Of a stretch of DNA of 64,000 nt, positions 35,818 to 61,949 are shown one piece after another. The notes under the pieces are model-generated. The model made no database searches. It worked only from the letters and a program-made list of their open reading frames with translations, and was not told the DNA's origin. Position 1 is the first letter of the stretch. The number at the start of each line of letters is the position of its first letter. Origin of the DNA: Mycobacterium sp. BK086 (GTDB taxonomy: Bacteria > Actinomycetota > Actinomycetes > Mycobacteriales > Mycobacteriaceae); contig SNWL01000004.1 of NCBI GenBank assembly GCA_004362315.1, forward strand, positions 1,112,808 through 1,176,807, in the 5' to 3' direction. The position numbers and the translations under genes were made by a program.

Positions 35818-35837
35818 TGTCGTCCGAACGGACGACA
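35818..35837. promoter_or_regulatory. Perfect regulon palindrome, site A (aquaporin promoter)
   Basis: TGTCGTCCG-AA-CGGACGACA has perfect 9-bp arms. It is identical to site B at 37798-37817 and shares three further upstream bases (CGG). It lies between the response-regulator stop and the aquaporin start, 70 bases upstream of the ATG, where only the aquaporin promoter can be the target. Confidence 0.85.
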
Positions 35838-35844
35838 GACAGAT

Positions 35845-36492
35845 CTACTCCAGCAGCTGATTGCGCATCGCGTAGGCGACCGCGGCACCGCGGTCGGACA
35901 CCCCGAGCTTCTCGTAGAGCCGCCGGATGTGGGTCTTGATCGTGGTCTGCGCGAGGAACAGATCCTTCGCCATCTCCGGGACCGTCTTGCCGTCGGCGAT
36001 CAGGCGCAAGATCTCCTGCTCCCGTTCGCTAAGCACGGGACCCTGATACTGGGCCTGCCGATGCACCTGGGTGGCCAGGCTGGTCACGAGTTCCGGTGGC
36101 AGCACCTTCTCGCCGCGGGCGCAGGCCGCCACGGCGGCCACGATCTCGTCGCGATCGGACTCCTTGGACAGGTAACCCGCGGCACCGTCCTGGATCGCGC
36201 GGTAGACCACCGGGCCGTCGGTGGTCGCCGACAACAACAGCACCCGAGTGGGCAGACCGTCCCGATTCACCGCGTGCGCCACCGCGATTCCGTCGAGGCC
36301 GGGCATCTTGTAGTCCAGCAGCGCGACATCGGGCCGGTGCCGCTGGATCGCGGCGAGCGCAGCCTGCCCGTCACCGACCGCTTCGACGACCTCGGTACGC
36401 CCGCTGTTGTTCAGGGCGCGCACGATGCCGTCGCGGTAGACCGGGTGATCGTCACCGACCACCACTCGAATGCGTCGTTCTGAACTGCTCAC
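35845..36492 (-). CDS. NarL-like response regulator (LuxR-type output)
   Basis: The product has 215 residues. The receiver domain has the acidic pair in VVVGDDHPVYRDG, the phosphoacceptor Asp in DVALLDYKMPG (about residue 56), the switch Ser in LLLSATTD and the Lys in YLSKES. A LuxR/NarL helix-turn-helix follows: LSEREQEILRLIADGKTVPEMA, then TIKTHIRRLYEKLGVSDR. The sequence closely follows my memory of M. tuberculosis NarL (Rv0844c). The start is a GTG at 36492 with AGGAGG upstream, overlapping the kinase stop as GTGA. It is the most likely reader of the local 20-bp palindromes, since a perfect copy sits in its own operon promoter. Confidence 0.9.
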   Translation of the reverse strand: MSSSERRIRVVVGDDHPVYRDGIVRALNNSGRTEVVEAVGDGQAALAAIQRHRPDVALLDYKMPGLDGIAVAHAVNRDGLPTRVLLLSATTDGPVVYRAIQDGAAGYLSKESDRDEIVAAVAACARGEKVLPPELVTSLATQVHRQAQYQGPVLSEREQEILRLIADGKTVPEMAKDLFLAQTTIKTHIRRLYEKLGVSDRGAAVAYAMRNQLLE

Positions 36493-37703
36493 CGCACCTC
36501 CTGGTGATCGCGTAACGGCAACCGGACCCGCACGCACGTGCCACGGTCGACGGACCGGAATTCCCAAGTGCCCCGCAGTGACTCGATACGCGAGCGCTGC
36601 GAGGCAAGCCCGATGTGTCCCTCGGCGACTCGCCGGGACGCCGCCGCCCGATCGATGCCGACGCCGTCGTCGCGCACCTCGAGCATCACCGCGTCACCGT
36701 CGTCGCGCAGGGTCAACCACACCCGGCCGGCATTGGCGTGCCGGGCCACATTGGTGAGCAGCTCGCGCGCCACACCGTAGAGCGTCGCGTCCTCGGCGTG
36801 CGGGAGCGGATAGTCGATGGAACATTCGACGACGACCCCCGTGCGTTCGGCCAATGTGTCGAGAAGTCCGCGGACGGCGTGCTCCAACCCGCCTTCTTCG
36901 AGGACGGAGGGGTGCAATTCGCGGGTGGTCTGGCGCAACTCGCGCGCGACGTCGGTGAGCAACTCGCTGGCCCGCGCCACCCCGGACAGGTCGGGGTTGG
37001 GACGGATCGCGTCGCGCAGATCCTGGCGGGCTGCCAGCAGGGTCTGCAACGGTCCGTCGTGCAGGGCTTCGGCGACGCGCCGGCGTTCGCGTTCCTCGGC
37101 TGTCATCACATCGTTCAGGAGCATGGCCCGGCTCGCCGTCAGCTCGGCGATGCTGGCGAGCCGGCGCTGCTGCACCCGAGACACCGTGTAGGAGCACAGG
37201 CACAGCAGCGCGAGCATCACCAGCAGCGCGGCGATTTCGGGCGCGGACATCTGGCGGCGGAACACCGGGTCGGCCAGCACCGCGATCGCGGCGCCGAGGA
37301 TCGCGGCGACCGACATGATCGCGGCTCGTTGCCCGGCCTGGGTGGCGATGAAGAACGGCAGGAACGCCAGCAGTCCGAGCATCAGATAGCTGCCGGGGGA
37401 CAGCAACTGCAGCACGCAGATCGCCGCGATGTCGATCGGCATCATCGGCTCCAGTGCCCGCAACCGGGCGGTGCGCGGATGCTGTTGCAGCCGAACCCAT
37501 GCGGCCAGCACCGCCAGTACGGCGTAGCCGGCGACCAACGCCAGCTGCGCGGGCCACGACGCGCGTGGTGTCGAGGCGAGCACCACCAGCACCATGACGG
37601 CCACCAGCAGCAGCCGAAGGATGGCGCGCAACCGCTGCGCCTGGTTCTCGAACTTGAAGAAGATCGCGCGGACGGCCTCGCTGGTCCCGACGTCGGCGGG
37701 CAT
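36489..37703 (-). CDS. NarS-like membrane sensor histidine kinase (HisKA_3)
   Basis: The product has about 404 residues. An N-terminal membrane region of about six hydrophobic helices (residues 25-190) has only short loops, so it probably senses within or near the membrane. The dimerisation box is VAEALHDGPLQTLL with the phosphorylated His. An HATPase domain follows, with ELLTNVARHANA (N box), EVRDDGVGID (G1) and GHIGLASQRSR (G2). It belongs to the NarX/DegS class that pairs with NarL-type regulators. The start is uncertain: the ATG at 37703 is used, while a GTG at 37769 is in frame and overlaps a 14-bp palindrome (37758-37771). Confidence 0.88.
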   Translation of the reverse strand: MPADVGTSEAVRAIFFKFENQAQRLRAILRLLLVAVMVLVVLASTPRASWPAQLALVAGYAVLAVLAAWVRLQQHPRTARLRALEPMMPIDIAAICVLQLLSPGSYLMLGLLAFLPFFIATQAGQRAAIMSVAAILGAAIAVLADPVFRRQMSAPEIAALLVMLALLCLCSYTVSRVQQRRLASIAELTASRAMLLNDVMTAEERERRRVAEALHDGPLQTLLAARQDLRDAIRPNPDLSGVARASELLTDVARELRQTTRELHPSVLEEGGLEHAVRGLLDTLAERTGVVVECSIDYPLPHAEDATLYGVARELLTNVARHANAGRVWLTLRDDGDAVMLEVRDDGVGIDRAAASRRVAEGHIGLASQRSRIESLRGTWEFRSVDRGTCVRVRLPLRDHQEVR

Positions 37704-37797
37704 GGGCGGGACGACCAGGCTCACCCAGAAGCGACCTGGCCGCTTCGGCGGGCTGCCGTGTGCGCGCACACCGGGAGTGTAACCAGCCCGGCGCCGG

Positions 37798-37817
37798 TGT
37801 CGTCCGAACGGACGACA
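37798..37817. promoter_or_regulatory. Perfect regulon palindrome, site B (two-component operon promoter)
   Basis: TGTCGTCCG-AA-CGGACGACA lies in the gap between the kinase gene and the divergent small secreted-protein gene. It is 95 bases upstream of the kinase ATG (29 from the alternative GTG) and 113 bases upstream of the other start. Its presence in the operon's own promoter suggests autoregulation. Confidence 0.85.
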
Positions 37818-37930
37818 CCACCTTCATCCCCCGGTACGTGCTTTTGCGTGACAGACCGCGTGTCCCGCCGCGTCGATAGTTGTCTCAAGGCCGAAACAAG
37901 CCGAAACAACCACTCACACAGGAGAATTCA

Positions 37931-38179
37931 ATGAAGAACACCTTCGCCCGCTACATCGCGGCTCCGATTCTGTCGGCAGGCATCATCGGCGGCGCGGCAC
38001 TCGGACTGGCCGGCATCGCCAGCGCGGCCGAGGCCGGCCCGCACACCGGCAACGTGGCCACCCCGCAGATCCACGCCAAGCCCGCCGCCGAGGCCAGCCC
38101 GGGCTACTGGTGGCACCGGCACCACCCGTCGCTGCTGGATCCCAAGGCCGCGGCCAACTTCCAGCAGCCCGGCGCCTAG
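37931..38179 (+). CDS. Small secreted protein (82 aa)
   Basis: The product has 82 residues: a clear signal peptide (KNTFARYIAAPILSAG, then a Gly/Ala-rich core, cleavage after ASA near residue 32), then about 50 residues with a Trp/His cluster (YWWHRHHPS). AGGAGAATTCA precedes the ATG. I recognise no domain; small exported proteins with this leader are common in fast-growing mycobacteria. It is divergent from the two-component operon and shares the site B region. Confidence 0.8.
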   Translation: MKNTFARYIAAPILSAGIIGGAALGLAGIASAAEAGPHTGNVATPQIHAKPAAEASPGYWWHRHHPSLLDPKAAANFQQPGA

Positions 38180-38188
38180 CTCGATCAC

Positions 38189-38243
38189 AGCGATTTCGGC
38201 GCGCTAATCGCCGCTGAGCGAGCGAAAACGCGCCGAAATCGCT
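38189..38243. terminator. Bidirectional terminator
   Basis: AGCGATTTCGGCGCG (38189-38203) and CGCGCCGAAATCGCT (38229-38243) form a perfect 15-bp stem with a 25-base loop. It lies between the converging small secreted-protein gene and the sigma-factor gene. Its symmetry suits termination from both sides. Confidence 0.75.
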
Positions 38244-38251
38244 ACCAAACG

Positions 38252-39103: not shown

Positions 39104-39148
39104 GTCATAGACGACGAATCGGCATACAGAAAAGTTACCGCCGTGCCC

Positions 39149-39175
39149 CGTCACTTTCCACGAAGTTCCCCCGTC
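39149..39175 (+). promoter_or_regulatory. ECF41-type promoter for the NmrA-like gene
   Basis: CGTCACT (39149-39155), 16 bases, then CGTC (39172-39175) matches the ECF41 promoter signature TGTCACA-n16-CGTC at five of seven -35 bases and all four -10 bases, with exact spacing. It lies 31 bases before the ATG of the divergent oxidoreductase gene, exactly where the sigma factor should act. Confidence 0.7.
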
Positions 39176-39206
39176 CTTACTTGGTAACCGACCGAAAGGA
39201 TGCGAG

Positions 39207-42561: not shown

Positions 42562-42570
42562 CGAGCCAGA

Positions 42571-42591
42571 TTAGCTCTGTTTCAGAGCTAA
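42571..42591. promoter_or_regulatory. MarR operator
   Basis: TTAGCTCTG-TTT-CAGAGCTAA has perfect 9-bp arms with a 3-base spacer, 10 bases before the marR ATG. Size and position are typical of MarR autoregulatory sites. It overlaps the last bases of the upstream phosphodiesterase gene. Confidence 0.8.
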
Positions 42592-44872: not shown

Positions 44873-45669
44873 GCGTGCTGGCCCGGCTGCTGGACGTCAC
44901 CCGTGACCCCGCAGGCGTCTTCGTCGGCGCCGAGAGCGGACCGGCCGAGAAGCGGGCCTACGGCGGCCATCTCGCCGCGCAGGCGATGGCCGCGGCCTGC
45001 CACACCGTCGACAACGGCGCCACACCGACCAGTCTGCACGTGCAGTTCCTTCGCGGTGGCGACGCGGGCGCACCGGTGCACTACGACGTCGAACGGGTCT
45101 ACGACGGCCGCACCGCGGCATCGCGGCGGGTGCAGGCCCACCAGGAGGGCCGGCTGCTGACCGTCGCGACCGTCTCGTTCTCGGTGGCGGCCGACGGGCC
45201 CGAACACGCTGTAGAGGCAACGGCCCCAACCGATCCCGAGCAGATGCCGGCCACCGGTCCGATCGGTCCGGCGCCGTCGCTGCCCCTCGACGAGATCGAC
45301 ATCCGCTACGAGGACGACCGCAGCACAGGGGAATTCGTTCGCCGGCTGTGGTGGCGGGTGAGGGTGCCACTGGAAGGGCCAGCGTGGCTGCAGCAGTGCG
45401 CGGCGGTCTACGTCACCGACATCTACGGCATCGATCCGGTGCTCCAGGTGCACGGTCACACGATGACCGACCGCAGCCACCGCACCGCCACCACCGACTC
45501 GTCGATCTGGTTCCATCGGCCGATCAACGCAGGCGAGTGGAACCTGCTGGAATCCCGCTCCCCGGCCGCCGCATGTGGCCGCGGGCTGGTCACCTTGAAC
45601 CTTTACGACGCGCAGAAGGTGCTCACAGCGACGTTGGTTCAGGAAGGCTTGGCGGTCTTCCGAGCGTGA
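44869..45669 (+). CDS. Acyl-CoA thioesterase II (TesB-like, double hotdog)
   Basis: The product has 266 residues. Two hotdog halves are visible: N-terminal KRAYGGHLAAQAMAAACHTV and LHVQFLRGGDAGAPV, and C-terminal HTMTDRSHRTATTDSSIWFHR followed by LNLYDAQKVLTATLVQEGL. The Asp/Thr/Gln catalytic set of TesB appears present. It is translationally coupled to the CoA-transferase gene, so both probably act in one acyl-CoA pathway. The 3' end overlaps the convergent exported-protein gene by 31 bases. Confidence 0.87.
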   Translation: MSVLARLLDVTRDPAGVFVGAESGPAEKRAYGGHLAAQAMAAACHTVDNGATPTSLHVQFLRGGDAGAPVHYDVERVYDGRTAASRRVQAHQEGRLLTVATVSFSVAADGPEHAVEATAPTDPEQMPATGPIGPAPSLPLDEIDIRYEDDRSTGEFVRRLWWRVRVPLEGPAWLQQCAAVYVTDIYGIDPVLQVHGHTMTDRSHRTATTDSSIWFHRPINAGEWNLLESRSPAAACGRGLVTLNLYDAQKVLTATLVQEGLAVFRA

Positions 45670-46553
45670 TGGCCTGTGCCTGCCGACTTCTGCGCTCCTG
45701 TGGAGGTTGAGCCGGTGGACGATGCGGCACTGCGGCCGTTACCTTTTGTCGAGGGAATTTGGGCGCTGACAGTGCTTTTCACCAGTGTCGGGCTGCCAGC
45801 CTGTGGCGTGCTGTCCGTCGGAGCCTCGGCGCCGGCGGCCGTAGCCGATTCTGTGGGGTTCTTGGTGGCTCCGATCGGCGCCACCGTGCGTCCCGACTTA
45901 CCCACACCCGTGCCCGCTGCCCTGGGCTGGTCCGAGTCAGAGGCCTTTCCGGCATCCCCCGTTCCATCGTGCGCAGCGGCTTTCGCCTTCGCTGCGGTTG
46001 CCGCGACGGCCAGTGGGTTCCACCCGCCGTAAAGGAAGAAATTGGCCTCGGCCTGAACGAAGCCCGCGAAAAGGTCTACAGTCACCGCAACCAGGTGGTT
46101 CAAGTATCCGACGTCTAGAGTGCCGAGAAAGAGCGTGCCACAGGTCAGCGGCAGCCAGACCACGGGCCAGATCACATAGTTGTAGACGATGTACGCCTGG
46201 CGAGCGACCACATTGACGACCGGTATCGACATGCCGACAACGAGCGTGGAATTCACCACGCTGGTGACGAGTGGCTCGGCGTTGTAGGCGATCGTGTCAA
46301 TCGCAACCATGGCTTCGGTCCACCCCGGGATGTAGGCCATCAGTTCGACGTCCTGGGATACTCGCGCCGGCGCGGCGCTGCTCGCGATTGCCGGGAACTC
46401 CGAACGGGCCAGAGTCGCGCCGTCGGGAAGCGCACCGGCAATCCCGAGCGCTGCGACGCCGGCGATCAAGGCCGCGCGCATGGATACCCCGCGCCAGGGG
46501 CGTATGCCGCTGATCGCGGCGCTTGCGCGCACCGCACCGATTTCGATTGCCAT
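45639..46553 (-). CDS. Exported mycobacterial protein of unknown function (304 aa)
   Basis: The product has 304 residues. The N-terminal signal (MRAALIAGVAALGIAGALP) is followed by a hydrophobic, conserved-looking domain with YIPGWTEAMVAIDTIAYNAE and VARQAYIVYNYVIWPVVWLP. A long low-complexity tail rich in Ala, Thr, Ser and Gly (about residues 195-304) ends in basic residues. The ATG at 46553 has GGATGGGG upstream. I recall similar domains in exported mycobacterial proteins without function. A weak copy of the regulon palindrome (site J) lies 90 bases upstream. Confidence 0.7.
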   Translation of the reverse strand: MAIEIGAVRASAAISGIRPWRGVSMRAALIAGVAALGIAGALPDGATLARSEFPAIASSAAPARVSQDVELMAYIPGWTEAMVAIDTIAYNAEPLVTSVVNSTLVVGMSIPVVNVVARQAYIVYNYVIWPVVWLPLTCGTLFLGTLDVGYLNHLVAVTVDLFAGFVQAEANFFLYGGWNPLAVAATAAKAKAAAHDGTGDAGKASDSDQPRAAGTGVGKSGRTVAPIGATKNPTESATAAGAEAPTDSTPQAGSPTLVKSTVSAQIPSTKGNGRSAASSTGSTSTGAQKSAGTGHHARKTAKPS

Positions 46554-46642: not shown

Positions 46643-46662
46643 TGTCGCCCAATCGTATGAAA
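46643..46662. promoter_or_regulatory. Degenerate regulon palindrome, site J
   Basis: TGTCGCCCAATCGTATGAAA matches 14 of 20 positions of the perfect sites, and the flanking GGCGG resembles the CGG before sites A and B. It is 90 bases upstream of the exported-protein ATG at 46553, a distance shared by several other sites. It is the weakest member of the set. Confidence 0.4.
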
Positions 46663-48671: not shown

Positions 48672-48691
48672 TGTCAACCGAACGGACGAAT
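48672..48691. promoter_or_regulatory. Regulon palindrome, site C
   Basis: TGTCAACCGAACGGACGAAT matches 16 of 20 positions. The preceding GCCGG is the same as in front of site B. It lies in the non-coding region upstream of the secreted hydrolase gene. Confidence 0.65.
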
Positions 48692-49942: not shown

Positions 49943-49962
49943 TGTCGGTCGAACGGATGAAT
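49943..49962. promoter_or_regulatory. Regulon palindrome, site D
   Basis: TGTCGGTCGAACGGATGAAT matches 15 of 20 positions. It sits between the decayed kinase gene and the intact divergent kinase gene, 168 bases before the chosen ATG of the latter. Confidence 0.55.
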
Positions 49963-50130: not shown

Positions 50131-52203
50131 ATGGCACTGCTGCGACTCGAGGACGGTTCGGTCCTCACGCCGGGCGCGGTCCTCGCGCGGGCGGGTGAGG
50201 GGGTCATCTACGAGGTCATCGGACGCCCCGAATGGGTCGTCAAGGTGTTCCACGCCGACCTGAAAGACCTTGCTGCCAAGCGTGCCAAAGTCGCCGCGAT
50301 GATCGCCTCGCCACCGCCCGGGGCAGTGCAAGCGGATGGCTTCGTGGTCCTGACGTGGCCTCGGCACCTCGTCAGCGGCGACGACGGCACGGTGGGTTAC
50401 GTCATGTCGCGGGTAGACACCAGCAATGCGGTGGAAATCCACACCCTGAGCAACCCGGCTGACCGCATGAAGCCTCTGCCGTCAGCGCCTCAGTGGACAC
50501 CGCATGCCAGCTGGCATCACCTCATCACCGTGGCCGCGAATCTCTGTGTGGCGGTGGAGGCGGTACATCAAGTCGACGCGGTCATCGGCGACTTCCAGGA
50601 GCGCAACATCCTGGTCAATGACACCACCCGAGTGACCCTTGTCGACTGTGACTCCATCCAGTTCACGGATCAGAGCGGACACCAGTACCTCTGTGGGGTG
50701 GGTCGTCCCGAATTCACGGCGCCGGAATTGGCCGGGGTGAATCTGTCCACCACCGCGCGGGACAAGCCGTCGGATCTCTTCGCCCTCGCGGTCCACATCC
50801 ACCTGTTGCTGATGGCCGGCAATCACCCGTTCCTGCGGGGGCACTGGACCGGTCCGGGCGATCAACCCGACGCGCTGGCGCTGGCCCGGTCGGGCCAGTG
50901 GGCAGGCGGTCCGGGCTCTGCGCTGCGAACGTATCCGTTGGCGCCGCCGCTGGATTCGCTTCCGTTTGCCATCCAGCAGTTGTTCATCCGGGCCTTCACC
51001 GAGGGGGCCCACAACCCTGTCGTTCGACCCTCAGCGGCGGAATGGCGACAGGCCCTGCAAGCAGTGGTCGTCACCACCTGTCCGCGGGGGCATCAAATTC
51101 CGACCGAGCTCGAGAGCTGTCCGTGGTGTGCGATCGATGACGAGCGAGCGGCCCGGCGGGATCAGCGTGCGAGAGCTGCGGCGCCGACGGTCAGCTACCC
51201 CGCTTACGGCAGCACAACCACGCCGACACCGCCGACACCCAGAGCCGTGGCCAGTCCGCAAGCTGCGCGCAGTCGCACCCCACTAGTCGTCACCCTCGTG
51301 GTCGTCACCGTGATCGCGGTGATGGCAATCGGATTCGCCGTACTCGGTCGCGGCCACGACCCGGAAAAACGCGCTGCCGGAACCACTCCCGCAGGTGGCG
51401 CCGGCACCACCACGTCGGCGGTGACACAAGCTTGTACGGCCACGACGCTGCTGGAGACCGGATCTGCCACGATGACCCCCGATGGGCTCTCGGTGAATAC
51501 GACGCTGGATTCGTCCTGCTCGTCCACCGACACTCTTACCGGCTCGTCGGTAGTGGTGACCGTCACCGCCGGCTCTCGTGACGTTGCGTCGGGCGTGTTC
51601 AACCTCGATGCTCACCCGATCACGCTGACGTCCGGAGGGAATCAGAACCAGCAGTTCGTGTTTCCCGCAGGCATGTACTGGCGCGTGCCGGAAACCATTG
51701 GCAACGCGTCACTGCGCGTCGAGGTCTCCGGCTTCACCCACAACAGGAATGGGGCATCAGGCCGCTCCGACCCAATCGTCGCGTCCTCGCCGGCGCTGCC
51801 AGCCAATGGTAATCCCGAGAGCACGGCCGCGGCGGCGTTGCAAGAGCTCGTCGATGCCGACTACTCGTTCGTCAAGGGCAATCTCGCTGACCGCTGGGTA
51901 CCTCAGATCAGTTCCAAGAGAGTCGGTTTGGTCACCGACGGTATTACATACGCCAACACCGACATCCTGCGCAATCATCTGGAATTACGGCAGCGCTATG
52001 AGAACGTCCGCCTGGTGTTCTCCGGGCGCTGGACCACCTTCAACGGAGACAACTGGTGGGTCACGGTGGTCGGAACGCCCTTCGGCGATGCGGCGGCAGC
52101 CAACGGGTGGTGTGACGCCCACGGCATCGACTCGTGGAACTGCTTTGCGAAGACCGTTAGTGACAGCCGGGGGCCTGAGGGGACGACGGTGATTCGCAAA
52201 TGA
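50131..52203 (+). CDS. YegI-type receptor kinase with zinc ribbon, TM and extracellular module
   Basis: The product has 690 residues. The N-terminal kinase domain of the YegI (COG4248) type has GAVLARAGEGVIYEV (nucleotide loop) and the lysine in WVVKVFHADLKDLAAKRAK. The catalytic region is IGDFQERNILV and the metal Asp is in VTLVDCDSIQF. A putative zinc ribbon follows (CPRGHQIPTELESCPWC, about residues 317-333). One transmembrane helix is at about 382-406. The roughly 280-residue extracellular part comprises a beta-rich domain and a C-terminal domain with ADRWVPQISSKRVG and WWVTVVGTPF. The ATG at 50131, after GGTAGGGA, is the start. The extracellular part is homologous to the C terminus of the beta-propeller protein at 54995-57388. 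Confidence 0.82.
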   Translation: MALLRLEDGSVLTPGAVLARAGEGVIYEVIGRPEWVVKVFHADLKDLAAKRAKVAAMIASPPPGAVQADGFVVLTWPRHLVSGDDGTVGYVMSRVDTSNAVEIHTLSNPADRMKPLPSAPQWTPHASWHHLITVAANLCVAVEAVHQVDAVIGDFQERNILVNDTTRVTLVDCDSIQFTDQSGHQYLCGVGRPEFTAPELAGVNLSTTARDKPSDLFALAVHIHLLLMAGNHPFLRGHWTGPGDQPDALALARSGQWAGGPGSALRTYPLAPPLDSLPFAIQQLFIRAFTEGAHNPVVRPSAAEWRQALQAVVVTTCPRGHQIPTELESCPWCAIDDERAARRDQRARAAAPTVSYPAYGSTTTPTPPTPRAVASPQAARSRTPLVVTLVVVTVIAVMAIGFAVLGRGHDPEKRAAGTTPAGGAGTTTSAVTQACTATTLLETGSATMTPDGLSVNTTLDSSCSSTDTLTGSSVVVTVTAGSRDVASGVFNLDAHPITLTSGGNQNQQFVFPAGMYWRVPETIGNASLRVEVSGFTHNRNGASGRSDPIVASSPALPANGNPESTAAAALQELVDADYSFVKGNLADRWVPQISSKRVGLVTDGITYANTDILRNHLELRQRYENVRLVFSGRWTTFNGDNWWVTVVGTPFGDAAAANGWCDAHGIDSWNCFAKTVSDSRGPEGTTVIRK

Positions 52204-52213: not shown

Positions 52214-54331
52214 TCAACAGGACAACTGCGGATCCTTGCTTATCGCAACGTTCTTCAACGCGGCGTCGACGCGAGCGACGTCCAGTTCGCGGTTGTTGAC
52301 CGCGGCCTCGAGCCGATCGAGAACTTCGGGCACCTGGTCGGTCGAGACCCACAGTGCGACGTCCGCGCCGGCGCTCAACGCCTTGAGTACCGCCTCCGGC
52401 ACGGTGTAGCGCTGAGTGATCGCACCCATGCTGGACAGGTCGTCGGTGTAGACGAGACCGGTGAACGGTGGGCCACCGTAGCGCCCGCTGCGCAGTAGCG
52501 CGTAGGCGGCGGGTGACAGGCTGGCCGGATCAGTGCCCGTCAGATCGGGAACCTGCATGTGACCGACCATCACTGCGACCGGTTGCGCGGTACTTAGTTC
52601 CCGGTAGGGGATCAGGTCTCGGTCCATCAATGAACTCAGCGGGGGTGTGGTGACCCCGCCTTTGTGTGAATCTCCGGACGCACGGCCATGGCCGGGGAAG
52701 TGTTTCAGCACGGGGAGCAGACCGGCGTCGCGCAGGCCGCTGGCGTACGCGCCGGCATAGGCGATCACGGTCGAGGGATCGTCGCCGAAGGACCGGTCCC
52801 CGATGACGGTGTTGGCGTCGTCGTCGGTGATATCGACGACCGGAGCGAAGTCGACGGTGATTCCCCAGGCACGCATCTGTGTCCCGCGCTGGAACGCGAT
52901 GTCGTGGACCTGTTGCAGCGGAGTGTGTGCGGCAGCGAGGTTCCGTGCTGAATCCTGCTCGCCCAGAAGCGACTTGAGGCGTTGGACCCGGCCGCCCTCC
53001 TCATCGACACTGACTGCGAGCGGAAGCGGACGCTGGTCGGCCTGCAGCTCGCGCAGGCTGCCGTCGGTCAGCATTCCCAGTTGGGTCCAGCTGGCGACGA
53101 AGACCCCGCCGACACCGTAGTCCGCGACGACCGCCCGGGCATCGTCGATGCTGTTGACACCGACCATCAGTAGCTGAGCCAGCTTCTGACGCAGGGTCAG
53201 CTCCGACACGGCCGCTTGAAGTTTCGTACACGGCGGTGGTACCGCGGCCGCGGTGATCGTTGCCGCCGTGTCGGGAACTCCGGCGGCTTGCGACGGTGCA
53301 GGTTCGGGCTTGGGCTTGCCGAGCACAACGGCCGCCACCGTCAGGACCACCGCCACCACAATCGCCGCGGCGGCGGGCCAGATCACCGACCGCCCGGTGC
53401 GCGGTTCTGCGTCATCTGCCGGCGCAGCAGCACGGGGAGCCTGCGAGTCGAACGTCTGCGGAGGCTGCGGTCGGCGAGGACTGGAGATCGGGTGGGGGGC
53501 CGGGGTAGCGGTCGTGGTCTGCCTCGGGGTCAGCGCCCGGACAAAGCCATCGCAGGAGGCGAAGCGGTCACGCGGATCGAAGGAGAAGGCTCGGGTAAAG
53601 ACGCTACGTATGTGCTCGGCGTCGCTGACCTTTCCGGTGAGCCGGTCGGCACGGAACTGCAGGTAGCCGTCGCCGGTCACGATACGAGTGGTGTCAGTGA
53701 ACGGTGGCTCTCCGGTAAGGATCTCGAAAATCGTTGCTGCCAAGGAAAATTGGTCGCTGTATTCGCTGGCGCCTGCCCCGTTGAGTACCTCGGGGGCCAC
53801 ATAGCGGTGGGCGACGTAGCGGGCGTGCTGACCGGCGTCGTCGCGGTAGTGGCCGAAGTCGGTCACCACGATCTGGAAGTTCTTCGAGAAGGGGTCGCGG
53901 AGCAGGATATTCGTGGGTCTGACCGCTCCGTGGACGAGTTCTCGCATATGCGCATGGTCGAGGATGCGTGCGACGCGGCTGGCAATCGTCAGAGCGGCGC
54001 TTTCCGGAATCCCGGTGGGAAAGCGTCGGCGCAGCAGCCGGCCGGCGTCCAATCCGCTGATGTACTCAGTTGCGACCCAAACCCGTTCGTTGCGGTTGCC
54101 GATGTCGACCACGCGGGCGACGTCGGGATCATTCAGCGCGGAAACAACCGCGGCTGAGCGGCGGAGGCGTTGGACGAGACCGGCGTCCGAGGACGCTTCC
54201 GCCCGCAAGATCTTCAGTGCGACGGGGATTCCGGCTTCTGTGGCGGCGAGATAGACGGTGCCCACCGGGCCGGCCCCGAGGAGGCGATCGATCACCAAGC
54301 CGGAATACACATCACCCGGCGCCAACGGCAT
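52214..54331 (-). CDS. Membrane pseudokinase fused to extracellular GH3 (NagZ/LpqI-like) domain
   Basis: The product has 705 residues. Residues 8-265 form a PknB-type kinase fold: glycine loop LGAGPVGTVYLA, Lys40 in VALKIL, and DFG at 158-160. The HRD-x-K-x-x-N loop is HGAVRPTN at 134-141, so the catalytic aspartate and lysine are replaced by Ala and Arg. A Pro-rich linker leads to one transmembrane helix (about 312-335). Residues 365-705 form a GH3 hydrolase domain with LTLRQKLAQLLMVG, VDEEGGRVQR, KHFPGHG, the GDSH loop and the nucleophile region YTDDLSSMG near residue 630. Intact GH3 residues suggest an active beta-N-acetylglucosaminidase facing outward. Site E lies 72 bases upstream. The gene converges on the YegI-type kinase gene. 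Confidence 0.88.
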   Translation of the reverse strand: MPLAPGDVYSGLVIDRLLGAGPVGTVYLAATEAGIPVALKILRAEASSDAGLVQRLRRSAAVVSALNDPDVARVVDIGNRNERVWVATEYISGLDAGRLLRRRFPTGIPESAALTIASRVARILDHAHMRELVHGAVRPTNILLRDPFSKNFQIVVTDFGHYRDDAGQHARYVAHRYVAPEVLNGAGASEYSDQFSLAATIFEILTGEPPFTDTTRIVTGDGYLQFRADRLTGKVSDAEHIRSVFTRAFSFDPRDRFASCDGFVRALTPRQTTTATPAPHPISSPRRPQPPQTFDSQAPRAAAPADDAEPRTGRSVIWPAAAAIVVAVVLTVAAVVLGKPKPEPAPSQAAGVPDTAATITAAAVPPPCTKLQAAVSELTLRQKLAQLLMVGVNSIDDARAVVADYGVGGVFVASWTQLGMLTDGSLRELQADQRPLPLAVSVDEEGGRVQRLKSLLGEQDSARNLAAAHTPLQQVHDIAFQRGTQMRAWGITVDFAPVVDITDDDANTVIGDRSFGDDPSTVIAYAGAYASGLRDAGLLPVLKHFPGHGRASGDSHKGGVTTPPLSSLMDRDLIPYRELSTAQPVAVMVGHMQVPDLTGTDPASLSPAAYALLRSGRYGGPPFTGLVYTDDLSSMGAITQRYTVPEAVLKALSAGADVALWVSTDQVPEVLDRLEAAVNNRELDVARVDAALKNVAISKDPQLSC

Positions 54332-54402: not shown

Positions 54403-54422
54403 GATCATCCGTTCGGAGGACA
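54403..54422. promoter_or_regulatory. Regulon palindrome, site E
   Basis: GATCATCCGTTCGGAGGACA (palindrome in the TT orientation) matches 16 of 20 positions, 72 bases upstream of the pseudokinase-GH3 ATG. A further half-site TGTCATCCG lies at 54382-54390, between it and the gene. Confidence 0.6.
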
Positions 54423-54892: not shown

Positions 54893-54912
54893 ATTCATCC
54901 GAACGGGTGACA
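54893..54912. promoter_or_regulatory. Regulon palindrome, site F
   Basis: ATTCATCCGAACGGGTGACA matches 15 of 20 positions, 82 bases upstream of the beta-propeller gene ATG. The left arm ATTCATCCG is identical to that of site G. Confidence 0.6.
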
Positions 54913-54994
54913 CATACCCGTGCTGTGATGCGGCTCGCGACCCATAGTGTGTCCCCGTCTGCATCTTTTGCTGTCGAGGAAATGGGTCATCGGC

Positions 54995-57388
54995 ATGACT
55001 AATCCGCCGCCGGGGTGGCACGACAACGAACCGCCGGCGGGGTGGCACAACAACGAACCGCCGTCCGAGCCTCTGCGGTACGGTGCCACACCCAACTACC
55101 AGCCGCCTCTGCCAGGGAGTCGTTCGTGGTCCGCGCGCACCGCTGCGCTCATCCTGATACCGGTACTGGTGGTGGCCGCGGCCGTCGGGTTCTACGTGTT
55201 CAAGCGGGAGTCCGGCAGCGACATGGCCGGCCCCGTTGAAGGTCAGTTGCGCGGTACCTTTCCATCCAAACCGGCCGTGGGCTGGCGGCTGCCGGCGGAT
55301 CAGGTTTTCAGCGGAGCACAGTTCGTACTGCCGGACGGCATCGCATACACCTACATGACGCCGGGCGTCATCGATCTCGGAGACGTCCTGCTCACCTCGG
55401 CCGTGAAGCCGAACTCGGATATTGGCGCCACGCTCGTGGGAATAGACGCCGGGTCGGGCGAAGTGCTCTGGCAGAACTCCGACGTCGGTTTCAAACCGGT
55501 GTGCGCCGACAAGACCATCGAAGGCACGATTCCCTGCCTCGGTAAAGAGGCGGCATTCGGAGCACCGACGGGCGCCAAGGACCCACAGGTGTCATTCATC
55601 GACGTGCGCTCCGGCAAGGTTGTCCGACAGTTGACGGCGCCAGCCAAGGCAAGCACTGTCATGGTGCATGGCGCGGACGTCTACACCGTGGGCTACGACG
55701 AAATGGCGAAGGGAAATGCCCAGGATCTGACCGCGTCGTGGACACGGACCTACGGCACCACCTCCACGTGTGCGGGCAGTGGGGATTCGCACTACTTCGG
55801 CGTCAATGACAACGTCGTCTTCTACGGCAGCGACGGCGGTGTGGTCGTCGCCGACTCCCGGACCGGTGAGCAGCTGACTGACCACGAGCTCCAGGGCGTG
55901 GAACTGTTCGGTGGCAAGGGATTTGCGGGCCGGGTGTGCGATGCCAAGATGCGCGCGAGTGTCGAGATCGTCAGCGCCGACGGGCAGGTCCGACCGGTCA
56001 GCTCCGACGAGTGGGTAGCGAAGCCTTGGCTCGTTTCAGATCCCGGGAAGGTGCCGGCGATCGTCGGAGACACCGCATATGACCTAGGCAGCGGCCAACC
56101 GCTGTGGACCGAGCAGCCCGGCCCAGGGCAAGCCTCAGTGAAGATCACCCACATCGTGGGTAATACGGCGGTCGGACAAGAACCGCTACCTGACGCTGCT
56201 CATTTCTGGAACCTGGTAGGCGTGGATCTGTCCGACGGCCATCGCCTCTGGACGTCGCAGGTGTCAGGTACCCCCGTCGTATCCGACGGTGAACGCGTGA
56301 TGGTCAGCAGCGACGACGACGAGCTGTCTGCGGTGAACCTCAGCACAGGGGAGGTGGATTGGCGGCTGCATTATGACCGCGGCGCGGTTTCCCCGGCAGG
56401 CAAAGGCTTCACGATTACCGACAGCGACAGCATGACCTTCTACGGACCAACCGGCGGCCCATCGTCGGTTCCGGGCCGGCGGGCGGCCACCGAGAAGACA
56501 CCAGACAAGGGGGCGGCCGGCGGCCCTGTCACCAAATGTGGCAAGACACCGGAACTGAAACCGGTGCAGTTCCGGGCGGAGAATGGCGCGATGGTCGTGA
56601 AGATGGAGTTCAAGGCCACCTGTCCGGGCGGGGATATCCTCAGCAGCAACAGGTTTCGCGTCACGATCCGTGACGGTGAGAGTCTGATCGCCTCCGGGTA
56701 TTTCGACTTCAGCAATAATCCGTTGGTGCTCGACGGTGAGAATCCCACCACTCTTGACCTGACCTTCGGTCCGGGCACGATCTGGCGTCTGCCAAACACG
56801 CTGGGCAACAGCAGCGGCAGTGCCTCTGGCAAGGCGGTGACGACCACAGCGGATGCGTCCGGGCGTGAGCTGGTCGACTGTGCTGACGAGGGGACGAGCA
56901 CCGGGCCGGCAAGCGTTGACCCGGCGACCACCAACCAGACCGGCCGGGCGACGACCGGAACTACACCAGACGGGGCACCTTGCAATGACGACGACGCTCT
57001 GGCCGCGCTGCGGGTGCAGACCGACGCTGATCGTCCGTTCGTCCAGGCAGATCTGGCGGACCGCTGGGTGGCGCAGCTATCCGCCAAGCATCCGGGACTT
57101 GTAGCCCCCGACGTTAACGGACAGGTTCTCACCTGGACGCCGTGCGAGATCCTGCGCCAGCACGTCCGACTACGCCTGCAATATCCGGAGGTCAGGATGG
57201 TGTGGAGCGATGAATGGCGGACCTTCGACCTGCGCGGCTGGTGGGTCACCGTTGCCGGGTTGACGTTTCCCGATGCGGATGTGGCCAACCGATGGTGCGA
57301 CGATCGGGCCATCCCTGTCGACGAGTGCTTCGCCAAGGTGATCAGCAACAGTCGGGATTCCGCCGGTACCACCAAATACCGGCGCTAG
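54995..57388 (+). CDS. Membrane-anchored PQQ-type beta-propeller protein with receptor-like C-terminal module
   Basis: The product has 797 residues. The short cytoplasmic N terminus contains the repeat PPPGWHDNEPPAGWHNNEPP, and a transmembrane helix follows at about 48-70. An extracellular PQQ-like propeller (about 90-500) has repeats such as VGIDAGSGEVLWQNSD, VGVDLSDGHRLWTSQ and VNLSTGEVDWRLHYD. Residues 513-650 and 667-797 match the two extracellular domains of the kinase at 50131-52203 (ASGYFDFS and WRLPNTLGN; ADRWVAQLSAKHPGL and WWVTVAGLTF). No enzyme motif is seen; a ligand-binding or scaffold role is inferred. The ATG at 54995 is preferred over an earlier in-frame start at 54947. Confidence 0.82.
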   Translation: MTNPPPGWHDNEPPAGWHNNEPPSEPLRYGATPNYQPPLPGSRSWSARTAALILIPVLVVAAAVGFYVFKRESGSDMAGPVEGQLRGTFPSKPAVGWRLPADQVFSGAQFVLPDGIAYTYMTPGVIDLGDVLLTSAVKPNSDIGATLVGIDAGSGEVLWQNSDVGFKPVCADKTIEGTIPCLGKEAAFGAPTGAKDPQVSFIDVRSGKVVRQLTAPAKASTVMVHGADVYTVGYDEMAKGNAQDLTASWTRTYGTTSTCAGSGDSHYFGVNDNVVFYGSDGGVVVADSRTGEQLTDHELQGVELFGGKGFAGRVCDAKMRASVEIVSADGQVRPVSSDEWVAKPWLVSDPGKVPAIVGDTAYDLGSGQPLWTEQPGPGQASVKITHIVGNTAVGQEPLPDAAHFWNLVGVDLSDGHRLWTSQVSGTPVVSDGERVMVSSDDDELSAVNLSTGEVDWRLHYDRGAVSPAGKGFTITDSDSMTFYGPTGGPSSVPGRRAATEKTPDKGAAGGPVTKCGKTPELKPVQFRAENGAMVVKMEFKATCPGGDILSSNRFRVTIRDGESLIASGYFDFSNNPLVLDGENPTTLDLTFGPGTIWRLPNTLGNSSGSASGKAVTTTADASGRELVDCADEGTSTGPASVDPATTNQTGRATTGTTPDGAPCNDDDALAALRVQTDADRPFVQADLADRWVAQLSAKHPGLVAPDVNGQVLTWTPCEILRQHVRLRLQYPEVRMVWSDEWRTFDLRGWWVTVAGLTFPDADVANRWCDDRAIPVDECFAKVISNSRDSAGTTKYRR

Positions 57389-57837
57389 AAGCGCGTCAGG
57401 TCATACAGCCGAGTGCCATCCTTCGCGTAAACGGTTGCTGCGTCGTCACCGCTGAACTGGACGGAGTATGTCGCCTTGTTCGGCCCCTGGGTGACGACGA
57501 GTTTGTAGCGTCCTGCGGAGTCCGGCTTGCTGGAGATGGCGCACTCCATCGGCCCGCCGATATCGAGCGGCTTGCCGCCGTTGTAGAAGAACCCGTCGCA
57601 TCTGCCGTCGGAATTGAACCGCTTGGTGCCGGTGTTGTCCGAGGATTCCCAGGTTCCGAAAAGTGATCCGCCACCACTCGCAGCCGATGTCGGATCTGGC
57701 GCTGATGCACCGCCCGAGGTCCCGGCGTCGGGGGCCGTGGCGCTTCCCGCCGAGATGTTGTTCGGCGTCGAGTGACAACCTGCTGCCGCGAGTACCGTGA
57801 GCAGCACGAGAACCGCGCGAGCGAAGGGCAAAACCAT
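57385..57837 (-). CDS. Lipoprotein of unknown function
   Basis: The product has 150 residues. A signal peptide ends in the lipobox AAAGC, with Cys21 as the lipid-modified residue. A Ser/Gly/Ala/Pro linker follows, then a roughly 90-residue domain starting SLFGTWESSDNTGTKRFN with two cysteines (GRCDGFF and PMECAIS) that could form a disulfide. It resembles small mycobacterial Lpp/Lpq lipoproteins in layout, but I recognise no family. Its stop overlaps the convergent propeller gene by four bases. Site G lies 82 bases upstream of the ATG. Confidence 0.8.
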   Translation of the reverse strand: MVLPFARAVLVLLTVLAAAGCHSTPNNISAGSATAPDAGTSGGASAPDPTSAASGGGSLFGTWESSDNTGTKRFNSDGRCDGFFYNGGKPLDIGGPMECAISSKPDSAGRYKLVVTQGPNKATYSVQFSGDDAATVYAKDGTRLYDLTRF

Positions 57838-58362
57838 GGCTTGGACGGTACGGGACGGCGCCACGAAGATGTCCGAAATCACCGCTGCGGATTGGGTTCT
57901 CATCCGGACGTAGACGAAATTCATCCGATCGGACGACACAGGCGGTCCGGGTAGTCTTCGACCTGATAAGCGGTGTAGCGTCCACGATTAACTTCGGCGA
58001 TGGTGTCCCCGGCGAGGGCCTTCCTGATGAATGGTTTGAGGTCGTAGTTGCAGCACCGCGCCCATTGGGAGATGCGGGGGTCATACTGGCTACGCCGCTG
58101 AAAGTGCCGTGGTTGCTGTGCATCTGACCGGATACCCAAGCGCAGTGAATACTTCGAATCCGACCCGGGGTTGTCCTGCGGCAGCTTGCCGCGATGCCGT
58201 TGGCGTTGGCGTGATTGAGTTCGTATCTCAATGTCTTTTCACCGACGGGATGCAGTGCCGCGGCGACGTCAGCGATCCTTCGTGATCAACGAGCTCAGCG
58301 GCCACATCGATGCATGCGTCCGAAGCAGCGATCCGGCGCGGAGTCCGGGCGTCTGTATCCAG
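57838..58362. other. 525-base region with regulon site and an unassigned minus-strand ORF
   Basis: No confident gene is seen. A minus-strand frame at 57921-58139, open upstream to about 58237, encodes PRISQWARCCNYDLKPFIRK and AGDTIAEVNRGRYTAYQVED, which looks protein-like, but it has only a TTG start and I know no homologue. It may be a gene remnant. Its 3' end runs into site G. The rest, up to the amidase stop at 58363, shows no further signal. Confidence 0.4.
57919..57938. promoter_or_regulatory. Regulon palindrome, site G
   Basis: ATTCATCCGATCGGACGACA matches 16 of 20 positions, with a perfect right arm CGGACGACA, 82 bases upstream of the lipoprotein ATG. Another half-site (CTCATCCGGACG) lies just downstream at about 57899-57910. 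Confidence 0.65.
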
Positions 58363-59184: not shown

Positions 59185-59218
59185 GGCGATCACGATACGG
59201 AGTCGAATCGATTGATCA

Positions 59219-60937
59219 TCAGCATTGGATCCTTTTTGTCGGATCGCTGGTCGTGTCAAGCCGTTTGCCGTAGGCATCGCCGCCGGCGGCGCGAACGGCA
59301 GCACAGATGTCAGCGTCACTACGCCCAGCGGGCCGATACACGGCATAGATCGGATTTCCCGCATCGTCTCGCTTGCGAAGCGAGGGGCACGATTCGTCGG
59401 TCCGAAGATACGACGAGCCGGAGAAAGAGTTGAGGAATCGCTGGACTTCCTCGTCATAGCGCCCGGGCGTTACGGCGTTGGCCAACACTACGATTCCCGA
59501 GCCATCACACGGCGGATGGCTCATCGGCACACTGACGTTCAGTGCGTTGGGCGAGACTGTCGAGCTGTTTCGTGATGTGGTGGCCGAGGTTCGTGTTGTG
59601 ACTGAAGTGCTGGTCGCCTGGAAGGTCCTGGCGGTCGTGGTCGAAGGTGTGAAGGCAGGGGTCTGTGTCGGGGACTTCTGGAGATTGATCACGATCACCA
59701 CGATGGCTATCAGTGTCGCGAGAGCGATCCCGGCGATGGTCAGGTATTTGGCGGTACTGTCCTGCTTCTGGCCCGTCGTCGTGGTGGGAACCCGCTTGCT
59801 GGCCGGGGCGAGGGTGGGAGTCGCTGGTACATAGACAGTTTGGGGCTGCTGGGCCCTGACGGGCTCGGGACGAGCGGTTCGACGGGCGGTGCGTTCGTGC
59901 TCGATGTGGCACCACGGGCAATGTTCCGTCTCTACCGGGAGTTGGTGTCCGCGCACACATGTGCGGATCTGCAGCCCCTGCAGCGCGTTGCGCCACTCGT
60001 GAGCTGTGGGGCGCTCCTCGGGGTTGCGGGCTCCGCCGGTGAAGGCGCGCTGGAACAGCCGTTGAATGTTGTCGGGGAGGAAGCCCGGTGCCGGCGCGAG
60101 TGGATGAGTGTGCAGGGGTGAACCCGGACCGCCTGCCCACCAGCCCGACTTTGCCAACGTGAGTGCATCGGGTTGGTCACCGGGCCCGGCCCAGGTCCCC
60201 CGAAGAAAGGGGTGATTACCGGCCATCAACAACAGATGGATGTGCACCGCCAAAGCGAAGAGATCCGAGGGCTTTTCCCGTCCGGCTACCGCGAGGTTCA
60301 GGCCGGCCAGCTCCGGCGCGGTGAACTCCGGCCTGCCGACGCCACACATGAATTGTCGGCCGGCAGCGTCGGTGAACTGCATCGAGTCGCAGTCGACCAG
60401 CGTCACCTGGGTGGTGTTGTTGACCAGGATGTTGCGTTCCTGGAAGTCGCCGATGACGGCGTCGACTCGGTGCACCACCTCGACGGCGAGGCAGAGATTG
60501 GCCGCGACGTTGACGAGGTGAAGCCAGGTCATGTGTGGAGTCCATTGCGGTGCGGTGGCGAGCGGATTGGCCCGATTCGACGGGTTGCTCACGGTATGGA
60601 TCTCCACCGCGTCGGTGGTATCGATGCGACGCATGACGTAGCCCGCCGGGCCGGCGGCATTCGCCACCACATGGAGCGGCCAGGTCAGGACGACGAACCC
60701 GTCCGACTGCACCGCTCCTGCAGGAGGCGAATGCACCATCGCGGCCACCTTGGCGCACTTGAGCGCCCGATCTTTGAGATTGTCATGGAAAATCTTCGCC
60801 ACCCATTCCGGATGGCCCACCACCTCTGACACCGTGCCTTCACCGGCTCGAGCAATCACCGCGCCCAATCTCACCTGAACGGCGTCAGAACTGTCGGCGA
60901 CCAAACCGCCGCCGACAAGCCACATTTCGTCCGTCAT
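59219..60937 (-). CDS. YegI-type receptor kinase with zinc ribbon and TM (second intact copy)
   Basis: The product has 572 residues. Its cytoplasmic part is very like that of the kinase at 50131: GAVIARAGEGTVSEV, lysine in WVAKIFHDNLKDRALK, IGDFQERNILVN, TLVDCDSMQF, and zinc ribbon CVRGHQLPVETEHCPWC. A transmembrane helix is at about 397-420. The extracellular tail differs: a Thr/Ser linker, then a roughly 100-residue domain with GIVVLANAVTPGRYDEEVQ and YLRTDESCPSLR, a type seen at the C terminus of mycobacterial receptor kinases. The ATG at 60937 follows GAAGGACGG. The amidase gene starts 35 bases after its stop, so a kinase-amidase operon is likely. Confidence 0.82.
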   Translation of the reverse strand: MTDEMWLVGGGLVADSSDAVQVRLGAVIARAGEGTVSEVVGHPEWVAKIFHDNLKDRALKCAKVAAMVHSPPAGAVQSDGFVVLTWPLHVVANAAGPAGYVMRRIDTTDAVEIHTVSNPSNRANPLATAPQWTPHMTWLHLVNVAANLCLAVEVVHRVDAVIGDFQERNILVNNTTQVTLVDCDSMQFTDAAGRQFMCGVGRPEFTAPELAGLNLAVAGREKPSDLFALAVHIHLLLMAGNHPFLRGTWAGPGDQPDALTLAKSGWWAGGPGSPLHTHPLAPAPGFLPDNIQRLFQRAFTGGARNPEERPTAHEWRNALQGLQIRTCVRGHQLPVETEHCPWCHIEHERTARRTARPEPVRAQQPQTVYVPATPTLAPASKRVPTTTTGQKQDSTAKYLTIAGIALATLIAIVVIVINLQKSPTQTPAFTPSTTTARTFQATSTSVTTRTSATTSRNSSTVSPNALNVSVPMSHPPCDGSGIVVLANAVTPGRYDEEVQRFLNSFSGSSYLRTDESCPSLRKRDDAGNPIYAVYRPAGRSDADICAAVRAAGGDAYGKRLDTTSDPTKRIQC

Positions 60938-61038
60938 CAACCGTCCTTCGGCAATAGTGAGTTGAATGCCGAGATTGTGGCATGCAATTCACAGGTGTGA
61001 ACGTGATACAACGGCCGCCCGGCACCGTTGTCGGCCGT

Positions 61039-61058
61039 TGTCGGCCGTTCGTACTAAA
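61039..61058. promoter_or_regulatory. Degenerate regulon palindrome, site I
   Basis: TGTCGGCCGTTCGTACTAAA matches 16 of 20 positions in the TT orientation. The left arm TTGTCGGCCG is directly repeated just upstream at 61028-61037. It lies 49 bases before the membrane-protein start at 61108 and about 100 bases upstream of the divergent kinase gene. Confidence 0.45.
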
Positions 61059-61107
61059 TCCCGCGGTGGGGGGAGCGCGCAGTCACCTGCCGTGTTAGAC
61101 CCGACGG

Positions 61108-61863
61108 GTGACGGATCAGTTGCCCCCAAGCAAGTTCGGTGCGGGCTATACCTATGGTGGCTCGGCGAGCGCTTCGCCACCGTCGCCCAGCCCGGTCAAT
61201 CCCGCTACTTTTCCGAACCCGGTTCCGCCCCCGCCGACGCAGTACGGCACCACGGCAGCGTCGACGCCCGACGTGGCTTATGGGGCACCGGTGACACAGT
61301 TCCTGCCTGCAGCGGCGCGAGTCAGCGGAGGCACGGCAATCGCAGCGGGCGTGTTGGCACTGGTGATCGGCGCCTATCGAGCATTCGCGACGTACGCGTA
61401 CTTTGCCACCGTCGCCATGCTGGGCGACGCCGGCAGCAGTTACGCCGCTGTCCGCGACATGCGCAATTACGCCACGGCCGCTGGCGTCATATCAGCGATC
61501 GGCACTCTGGCACTTGTCGTCGGGGCCATCCGGCTGTTCAACCGTGGACTAGGCGGTCGCGGACTCATCACGATGGGGTGCTTGATCGCGATCGCGGATG
61601 TTGTGCTCATGTGGATCTCAGTTATGGGATGGGTGGAAAGCCTCTTCGGCTCCGGATCCATCTTCGGCGAGCAGGGGCTCAATATTTCGACAGGTGACGT
61701 GCTGGCCGAGGCGTTCAGCCGACAAGGTCCGTCCATCGTTATCCACCTCTTGGTAACCATTGGGATCCCACTGCTCACAATCGTGCTTGCGTTCTCGAAG
61801 TCGACCCGTCGATGGTGTGAGGCCGGCAGGGCGCCGGGTCCCTATGGAACTCGCACCTACTAG
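61108..61863 (+). CDS. Multi-pass membrane protein with Pro-rich N terminus
   Basis: The product has 251 residues. About 65 residues rich in Pro, Ser, Tyr and Gly precede four hydrophobic segments (near GGTAIAAGVLALVIGAYR, AAGVISAIGTLALVVGAI, GCLIAIADVVLMWISVMG and IVIHLLVTIGIPLLTIVLAF). The layout resembles the tetraspan proteins found beside kinases and FHA proteins in mycobacteria, where the Pro-rich tail is a protein-interaction arm. No enzyme motif is seen. The GTG at 61108 is used. It lies between the second kinase and the vWA-PP2C-kinase triad. Confidence 0.75.
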   Translation: MTDQLPPSKFGAGYTYGGSASASPPSPSPVNPATFPNPVPPPPTQYGTTAASTPDVAYGAPVTQFLPAAARVSGGTAIAAGVLALVIGAYRAFATYAYFATVAMLGDAGSSYAAVRDMRNYATAAGVISAIGTLALVVGAIRLFNRGLGGRGLITMGCLIAIADVVLMWISVMGWVESLFGSGSIFGEQGLNISTGDVLAEAFSRQGPSIVIHLLVTIGIPLLTIVLAFSKSTRRWCEAGRAPGPYGTRTY

Positions 61864-61929
61864 CCGGGTCTTGGTCTCGGAGGATTGACAGTGCGAAGCA
61901 ACAGCTCGCACGACACGCGTTGGGTGACT

Positions 61930-61949
61930 TGTCCGCCGAACGGAGGACA
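61930..61949. promoter_or_regulatory. Regulon palindrome, site H (vWA-PP2C-kinase operon)
   Basis: TGTCCGCCGAACGGAGGACA matches 17 of 20 positions, the best of the degenerate copies. It lies 111 bases before the TTG start of the vWA gene, in the gap after the membrane-protein gene. Confidence 0.7.

Follow-up and report, generated by a model that had tools for sequence, protein, structure and literature searches.

RESULTS

Motif sites at an aquaporin two-component locus and a kinase island

The window analyzed here, a 64,000-nucleotide stretch of the genome of Mycobacterium sp. BK086 (contig SNWL01000004.1, positions 1,112,808 to 1,176,807 of the forward strand), holds an aquaporin gene beside a two-component system (TCS) of a membrane histidine kinase (HK) and a NarL-type response regulator (RR) and, further on, part of an island of genes for protein kinases and for exported and membrane proteins (Table 1). 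Between these genes lie ten copies of a 20-bp motif, which the initial annotation, made from the letters alone, had taken for a palindrome through which the aquaporin sensor probably controls both loci. All ten were found where that annotation had placed them, the exact 20-mers at 35818 and 37798 and eight degenerate copies, matching the exact sequence at 20, 20, 14, 16, 15, 16, 15, 16, 16, and 17 of 20 positions in site order. The description as a palindrome holds for the two exact copies (9 of 10 arm positions) but not for the other eight (4 to 8 of 10), and the sites continue past the edge of the window, where the contig (C2) ends.

At up to 3 mismatches, the level of the site at 61930, dinucleotide shuffles lead us to expect 0.02 matches by chance. 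Places with at least 15 of 20 matches number nine in the window, all within 35 to 64 kb, and third-order Markov sequence yields 0.8 such places per window (10 runs). The site at 46643, the weakest of the ten (14/20), is insignificant when taken alone, with 10 places in the window scoring exactly 14 and 10 expected. A weight matrix built from 20 own-genome sites, among them the ten window sites, gives no hit at 1 to 35 kb, the region said to be empty, versus ten at 35 to 64 kb, all of them intergenic.

Measured from the site centre to the start codon called by a simple in-house gene caller, the distances are 80 bp for 35818, 84 bp for 37798 (123 to the divergent gene), 100 bp for 46643, 133 bp for 48672, 82 bp for 54403, 92 bp for 54893, 112 bp (or 59) for 61039, and 121 bp for 61930. 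The site at 49943 lies 178 bp from the called start and 138 bp from a short fragment, and that at 57919 lies 5 bp from the called start, or about 92 bp if a later ATG at 57837 is used. Conservation in relatives, proposed earlier as a check, is borne out in the sister species G043, which has counterparts of 7 of the 8 window island sites (not 48672).

Genome-wide distribution and extent of the island

A pattern made from window sites (WKTCRNCCGWWCGGAYGAMW, up to 2 mismatches) occurs at 30 places in the whole genome, with 43 strand hits versus 6 for the reversed pattern. Nineteen of these places fall in the TCS locus, the island part of C2, contig C10, or contig C4 at 584 to 616 kb, and 11 lie elsewhere; nine of the 19 belong to the C4 cluster, which was not used in making the pattern. 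A sequence profile scan (E <=10; 150 of 6,052 first-look candidates scored) returned 24 places, 2 at the TCS, 19 in the island, and 3 elsewhere, including by construction the 20 sites on which the profile was trained. Perfect copies in this genome occur only at the TCS locus.

The 4.3-kb contig C10 shares sequence with two other contigs: 95 bp at its left end are the reverse complement of the right end of C2, and its final 95 bases recur in C4, 122 bases before the end of that contig. Because these contig ends share 95-bp repeats that fall within kinase genes, we infer one continuous island, in the order C4-C10-C2, that would extend past the window. Two separate islands on C2 and C4 were considered and set aside, given the shared ends and genome G013, in which genes of the C2 part and of the C4 part stand together on one contig.

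The island is bordered by a thioesterase gene. In M. rhodesiae JS60, a strain of M. sphagni, and a metagenome-assembled genome, what follows that gene is a TetR-like and an acyl-CoA-dehydrogenase-like gene (named by eye from the protein starts; partial in L252); in the sister species at L245, the island's exported protein comes after it. With a different follower in three relatives, the island would appear to have been inserted next to the TCS neighborhood.

Gene content of the island

One open frame in the C4 part of the island (the fetched stretch) combines an FHA domain with an FtsK/SpoIIIE ATPase and resembles EssC. The same part encodes kinases, three NarL-family RRs, two large HKs, a vWA/GDSL-lipase protein, proteins of DUF6777 and DUF7937, one clear WXG100 protein, and a second, borderline one that also has a CHAP domain. 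The window part contributes further kinases, a kinase fused to glycoside hydrolase family 3 (GH3), a beta-propeller protein, an amidase, a vWA protein, and a PP2C phosphatase. From this content, the island resembles a non-ESX type VII secretion-like, multi-kinase locus. A defence-system reading of the island was also considered; among eight island proteins tried, three matched PADLOC models, of kinase and FtsK/HerA-type families.

Each of the three island RRs consists of a receiver and a GerE domain (Pfam), and in alignment all retain the DD, D, S, and K receiver residues; two of the three adjoin kinases. The island HKs (L038:8087-10057 and L038:11938-14112) are unusually long, at 656 and 724 amino acids, with a single HATPase domain in the first half (Pfam), and by eye the second half looks like a second, degenerate membrane-kinase module.

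Island-type response regulators in relatives

Among 118 genomes of the genus, drawn evenly from a larger group, an orthologue of the aquaporin kinase at >=64% identity occurs in 5 (next best, 42%), an island-type RR in 34, and the motif at <=1 mismatch in 26. The motif is present in 19 of the 34 genomes with an island RR versus 7 of the 84 without; when the five aquaporin-TCS genomes are omitted, the figures are 16 of 31 versus 5 of 82 (P = 2e-7, the relatives not being independent).

The initial annotation held that equal frequency in coding DNA would refute the regulon, and at RR loci the sites are almost all intergenic. Forty stretches taken near an RR gene, a TCS locus, or a motif hit, some of them chosen for the motif, hold 76 intergenic sites and 0 coding ones. 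A cleaner count takes one RR locus from each of 32 RR-positive genomes (excluding G000 and G043), only one of which, G039, has an aquaporin TCS: at 14 bits, 614 kb hold 45 intergenic sites and 1 coding site, spread over 23 of the 32 loci (the first 23 loci account for 40 and 0, the remaining 9 for 5 and 1). Column-shuffled matrices give a mean of 0.16 sites versus 33 for the real matrix (first 23 loci, 18 bits), and 11 random 20-kb stretches (220 kb) contain 1 site. That the motif behaves like an operator is supported.

Several arrangements recur at these loci. In L128, L129, L145, L151, and L164, the island-type RR gene is followed some 180 to 230 bp on by a same-direction gene that, from its sequence start, is GMP-synthase-like, and a predicted operator lies between the two in four of the five genomes. 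Distant island-type RRs at L226, L228, L229, L231, L232, and L233 are followed by a conserved exported protein of 72 to 75 amino acids, with a TGTCATCT-type site between them in four of the six. Sites at L156:10236 and L157:9192 lie 191 to 197 bp before large exported proteins of G067 and G085 that are similar in the signal-peptide region.

The proposed aquaporin two-component regulon across genomes

The aquaporin TCS was followed in 11 genomes (our own, G043, G033, G090, G039, and those of L246, L247, L248, L249, L250, and L252), 6 of which lack an island RR (1e-30 cut). A site precedes the aquaporin gene in 10 of the 11, at 79 to 81 bp from the called start in nine and at 146 bp in G033, and the gap before the kinase operon holds a site in 7. 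In L249 (Antrihabitans, Nocardiaceae), the aquaporin gene stands apart from the RR gene yet keeps its site; it is divergent from an acyltransferase gene whose product is 65% identical to that at C5:103677 of our genome, which itself has a site 81 bp before its start. No aquaporin match and no site occur within the 21-kb TCS locus of L250; away from the TCS in that genome (L259), a symmetric site lies 140 bp before the gene of a protein 58% identical to 37931-38179, and the genome also encodes an island-type RR (56%).

Genome-wide at <=1 mismatch, G033, G090, G118, and G123 have sites at the TCS locus only, while sites beyond it number one in G119 and G120, two in G039 and G121, and three in G122; in TCS genomes without an island RR, they number zero to two. 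Weaker sites occur close to the TCS in sister species (L245, L246, L248, and L252, near 8941-9444); in L245, L248, and L252, they lie 125 to 134 bp before another small secreted protein (MNNTIGR...), which may be a further TCS target.

Two classes of sites

The sites at the aquaporin TCS differ from those of the island. All 18 TCS sites have T at position 6, compared with 18 of the 68 island sites; TGTC...GACA ends occur in 16 TCS sites and 7 island sites (by distinct sequences, 9 of 11 versus 4 of 54), and both features together in 16 TCS sites and no island site. Our own genome supplies 18 of the 68 island sites; the others, 35 of them at the 32 RR loci and 15 in G043, were taken at >=18 bits. 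The weaker sites near 8941-9444 in L245 to L252 were counted in neither class. Island-type RRs at 43 to 48% identity are followed in 4 of 8 cases by a TGTCATCT...GATGAAY site, a palindrome similar to ATTCATC, the half-site characteristic of the island class.

Promoter geometry

For 89 sites at >=18 bits (related sequences included), the nearest called start is 30 to 160 bp away in 62, farther in 25, and nearer in 2, with a median of 111 bp. In 63 de-duplicated promoters, TANNNT hexamers at offsets 12 to 33 past the site number 21 versus 10.3 in shuffles, a count reached in 2 of 1,000 shuffles; they peak at offset 21 (7 hexamers, a peak seen in 0 of 1,000 shuffles) and at offset 32 (4 hexamers). 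These candidate -10 hexamers would put many site centres near -43 or -54, positions separated by about one helical turn, as is the case for many activators, and activation is therefore likelier than repression.

Other features of the window

The coordinates of sites and genes are collected in Table 1. In a region without long genes, a short frame at 49573-49815 is 66% identical over 73 amino acids to the kinase at 50131-52203 and is probably a decayed kinase copy.

TABLE 1. Predicted operators and genes of the window, with counterparts in the sister species G043
Feature	Position	Strand	Remarks
Symmetric predicted operator	35818..35837		Exact match; before aquaporin start, just past RR stop codon
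Symmetric predicted operator	37798..37817		Exact match; between HK operon and divergent small exported protein
Asymmetric predicted operator	46643..46662	+	Before 45639-46553; counterpart L138:19343
Asymmetric predicted operator	48672..48691	+	Before 46759-48549; no counterpart seen in G043
Asymmetric predicted operator	49943..49962	+	Before kinase 50131-52203; counterpart L139:498
Asymmetric predicted operator	54403..54422	-	Before kinase-GH3 52214-54331; identical counterpart L135:11677
Asymmetric predicted operator	54893..54912	-	Before beta-propeller protein 54995-57388; counterpart L135:8307
Asymmetric predicted operator	57919..57938	-	Before lipoprotein-like gene 57385-57924; counterpart L135:9830
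Asymmetric predicted operator	61039..61058	+	Between kinase 59219-60937 and membrane protein 61108-61863; counterpart L135:3046
Predicted operator	61930..61949	+	Before vWA-PP2C operon; identical counterpart L135:2154
Aquaporin, MIP family	35074..35748	-	Pfam PF00230
NarL-type RR, proposed reader of symmetric sites	35845..36492	-	PF00072 (9.6e-24) and PF00196 (4e-17)
Membrane HK of aquaporin TCS	36489..37724	-	HATPase_c; HisKA_3 below cut-off (on 36489-37769)
Small exported protein, proposed TCS target	37931..38179	+	58% identical protein beside symmetric site in L250 genome
Exported protein, first island gene	45639..46553	-	Pfam: no match
Large exported protein	46759..48549	-	Pfam: no match
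Island protein kinase	50131..52203	+	PF00069 just below cut-off; 51% identical to 59219-60937
Kinase fused to GH3	52214..54331	-	PF00069, PF00933
PQQ/beta-propeller protein	54995..57388	+	PF13360; stretch 34% identical to kinase 50131-52203
Lipoprotein-like gene	57385..57924	-	Pfam: no match
Island protein kinase	59219..60937	-	PF00069 below cut-off
Membrane protein	61108..61863	+	Pfam: no match
vWA protein	62061..62762	+	PF13519/PF00092
PP2C phosphatase	62759..63868	+	PF13672
Start of further kinase	63906..64000	+	Exact 95-bp overlap with contig C10, and translation; C2 ends here

DISCUSSION

We consider it probable that the sites belong to two NarL regulons with overlapping operator codes, one of the aquaporin system and one of the island. 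The motif would be an operator bound by dimers of NarL/LuxR-type RRs on a CCG-N2-CGG core, presumably in dependence on phosphorylation. The aquaporin HK/RR pair would read mostly symmetric TGTCRTCC-N4-GGAYGACA sites, with the aquaporin gene, its own operon, the divergent small exported protein, and the acyltransferase (C5:103677) as targets, and at least one of the three island NarL RRs would read TGTCGGCCGWWCGKAYGAAT-like sites that precede many genes of the island, one RR gene among them. The earlier proposal that the neighboring NarL-like RR is the natural reader is supported for 35818 and 37798 but not for the island sites.

Several observations weigh against this division into two regulons. 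A motif match also occurs in five genomes that have neither system, 9 of the 32 island-RR loci have no site at 14 bits, and M. rhodesiae JS60 (G118), whose RR is 46% identical, shows only its two TCS sites. The class comparison was not blind, the TCS sites being hand-listed and the island sites matrix-found at 18 bits, and the acyltransferase site was placed in the TCS class for its symmetry. The classes also overlap: both TCS sites of L247 end in GAAT/GAAC, and near-symmetric sites such as TGTCGTCCGAACGGACGATA accompany relatives of the island RR that have only the helix-turn-helix (HTH) domain, in G013, G063, G068, G087, and G109. With 35 GerE-domain matches in the genome, a third reader may exist, and any of the three RR paralogues may be the one that binds island sites.

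The HTH-only relatives (L130:15046-15285, L140:8973-9233, L142:9489-9683, L143:13162-13401, and L154:10105) are 64 to 86 amino acids long as called and lack a receiver, and each has its near-symmetric site just upstream.

A cross-wired arrangement, in which the island RRs are the main readers and the aquaporin RR also binds some island promoters, for example that of 57919, and so tunes the island, is a considerably less likely alternative. Both regulators coexist in G000 and G043, and on a matrix of TCS sites, 3 of the 18 own island sites exceed the weakest TCS site (22.9): 57919, the own-genome island site nearest to the TCS class, at 26.9, C4:584434 at 24.1, and C4:615740 at 23.3. The other 15, however, score 13 to 22.8 on that matrix, on which 16 of the 18 TCS sites lie above 31.

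Slightly less probable again is that the asymmetric island sites are heterodimer operators, on which two NarL RRs, either two island paralogues or an island RR and the aquaporin RR where both exist, would occupy the unlike half-sites TGTCGKCCG and ATTCATCCG. We presume that the helix of the aquaporin RR resembles that of BldM. According to PMC4125116, the Streptomyces BldM homodimer site is TCACcCgnncGgGTGA and the BldM-WhiI heterodimer site is TGnnCCGnnCGGGTGA; these operators share with our motif the CCG-N2-CGG core, the GGRYGA arm, and the occurrence of symmetric and asymmetric versions, and they show, as a precedent, that homodimers can use symmetric sites and heterodimers asymmetric ones. 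The outer arms (TGTC/GAAT) differ, however, and here there are two TCS families, with the phosphorylation residues conserved in their receivers. Orphan, atypical receivers would mark a BldM/WhiI pair; that two of the island RRs stand beside kinases, and that all three retain those residues, speaks against one here. If the heterodimer reading is true, the secretion/kinase island would be on only when two sensors agree, and the shared core operator would let an island acquired by transfer connect to the aquaporin circuit already in place.

A single-sensor model, in which the aquaporin TCS alone governs both the aquaporin and the island, as the initial annotation proposed, now appears improbable, and we reject it as the main reading. 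The same core operator is found at both, the two regulators occur together in the genomes named above, perfect copies in our genome are limited to the TCS, and the recognition helices are alike (TTIKTHIRR versus TTVRTHLQR, containing the presumed DNA-contacting residues). Island-type sites nevertheless occur around RRs in genomes without the aquaporin TCS, TCS genomes without an island RR show few sites beyond the TCS (zero to two), the island encodes three NarL RRs and two HKs of its own, and the site classes differ. Least credible, and rejected, is a transcription terminator or mobile palindrome: the 35818 copy lies close behind the RR stop codon, and at 10 of 32 island-RR loci the 3' end of the RR gene has a site no more than 300 bp away, but most copies are asymmetric, no T run longer than 4 follows the site in the own-genome sequences inspected, candidate -10 hexamers stand at preferred offsets, and the L249 site accompanies the start of the aquaporin gene and not the end of the RR gene.

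Among described systems, the island is most usefully set beside the type VII secretion systems T7SSc and T7SSd (PMC11217815), with which it shares an EssC/EccC-like ATPase, WXG100 proteins, kinases, PP2C, and vWA proteins. The FHA domain on its ATPase is a likeness to T7SSd, the EssC of T7SSc being described there as without FHA domains; the island differs from both in occurring in Mycolicibacterium relatives and in being very large and multi-kinase. For T7SSd, defined by TsdA, FHA-TsdC, the TsdD kinase, TsdH, and TsdI, we find WXG100, an FHA-FtsK ATPase, and kinases in the island; the five core components listed in PMC11217815 include neither a phosphatase nor a vWA protein. Tested in two parts, cut between stretches with the frame open across the cut, the EssC-like gene scores 123.4 + 411.8 = 535 bits against the T7SSb EssC equivalog TIGR03928, below its cut-off of 778.4 bits. 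The best NCBIfam match both of the aquaporin RR (126 bits) and of the one island RR tested (58 bits) is MadR, far below the 300-bit equivalog cut-off. Among the titles and starts of abstracts that literature searches listed, none describes this motif or circuit, and none a large non-ESX type VII secretion-like multi-kinase island in mycobacteria.

The sites provide a predicted, testable regulator-operator code for a large non-ESX type VII secretion-like, multi-kinase island, next to an aquaporin two-component regulon that appears to be conserved separately and to reach into the Nocardiaceae. Their near-identical operators would make the two systems a natural case for insulation versus cross-wiring of related NarL regulators.

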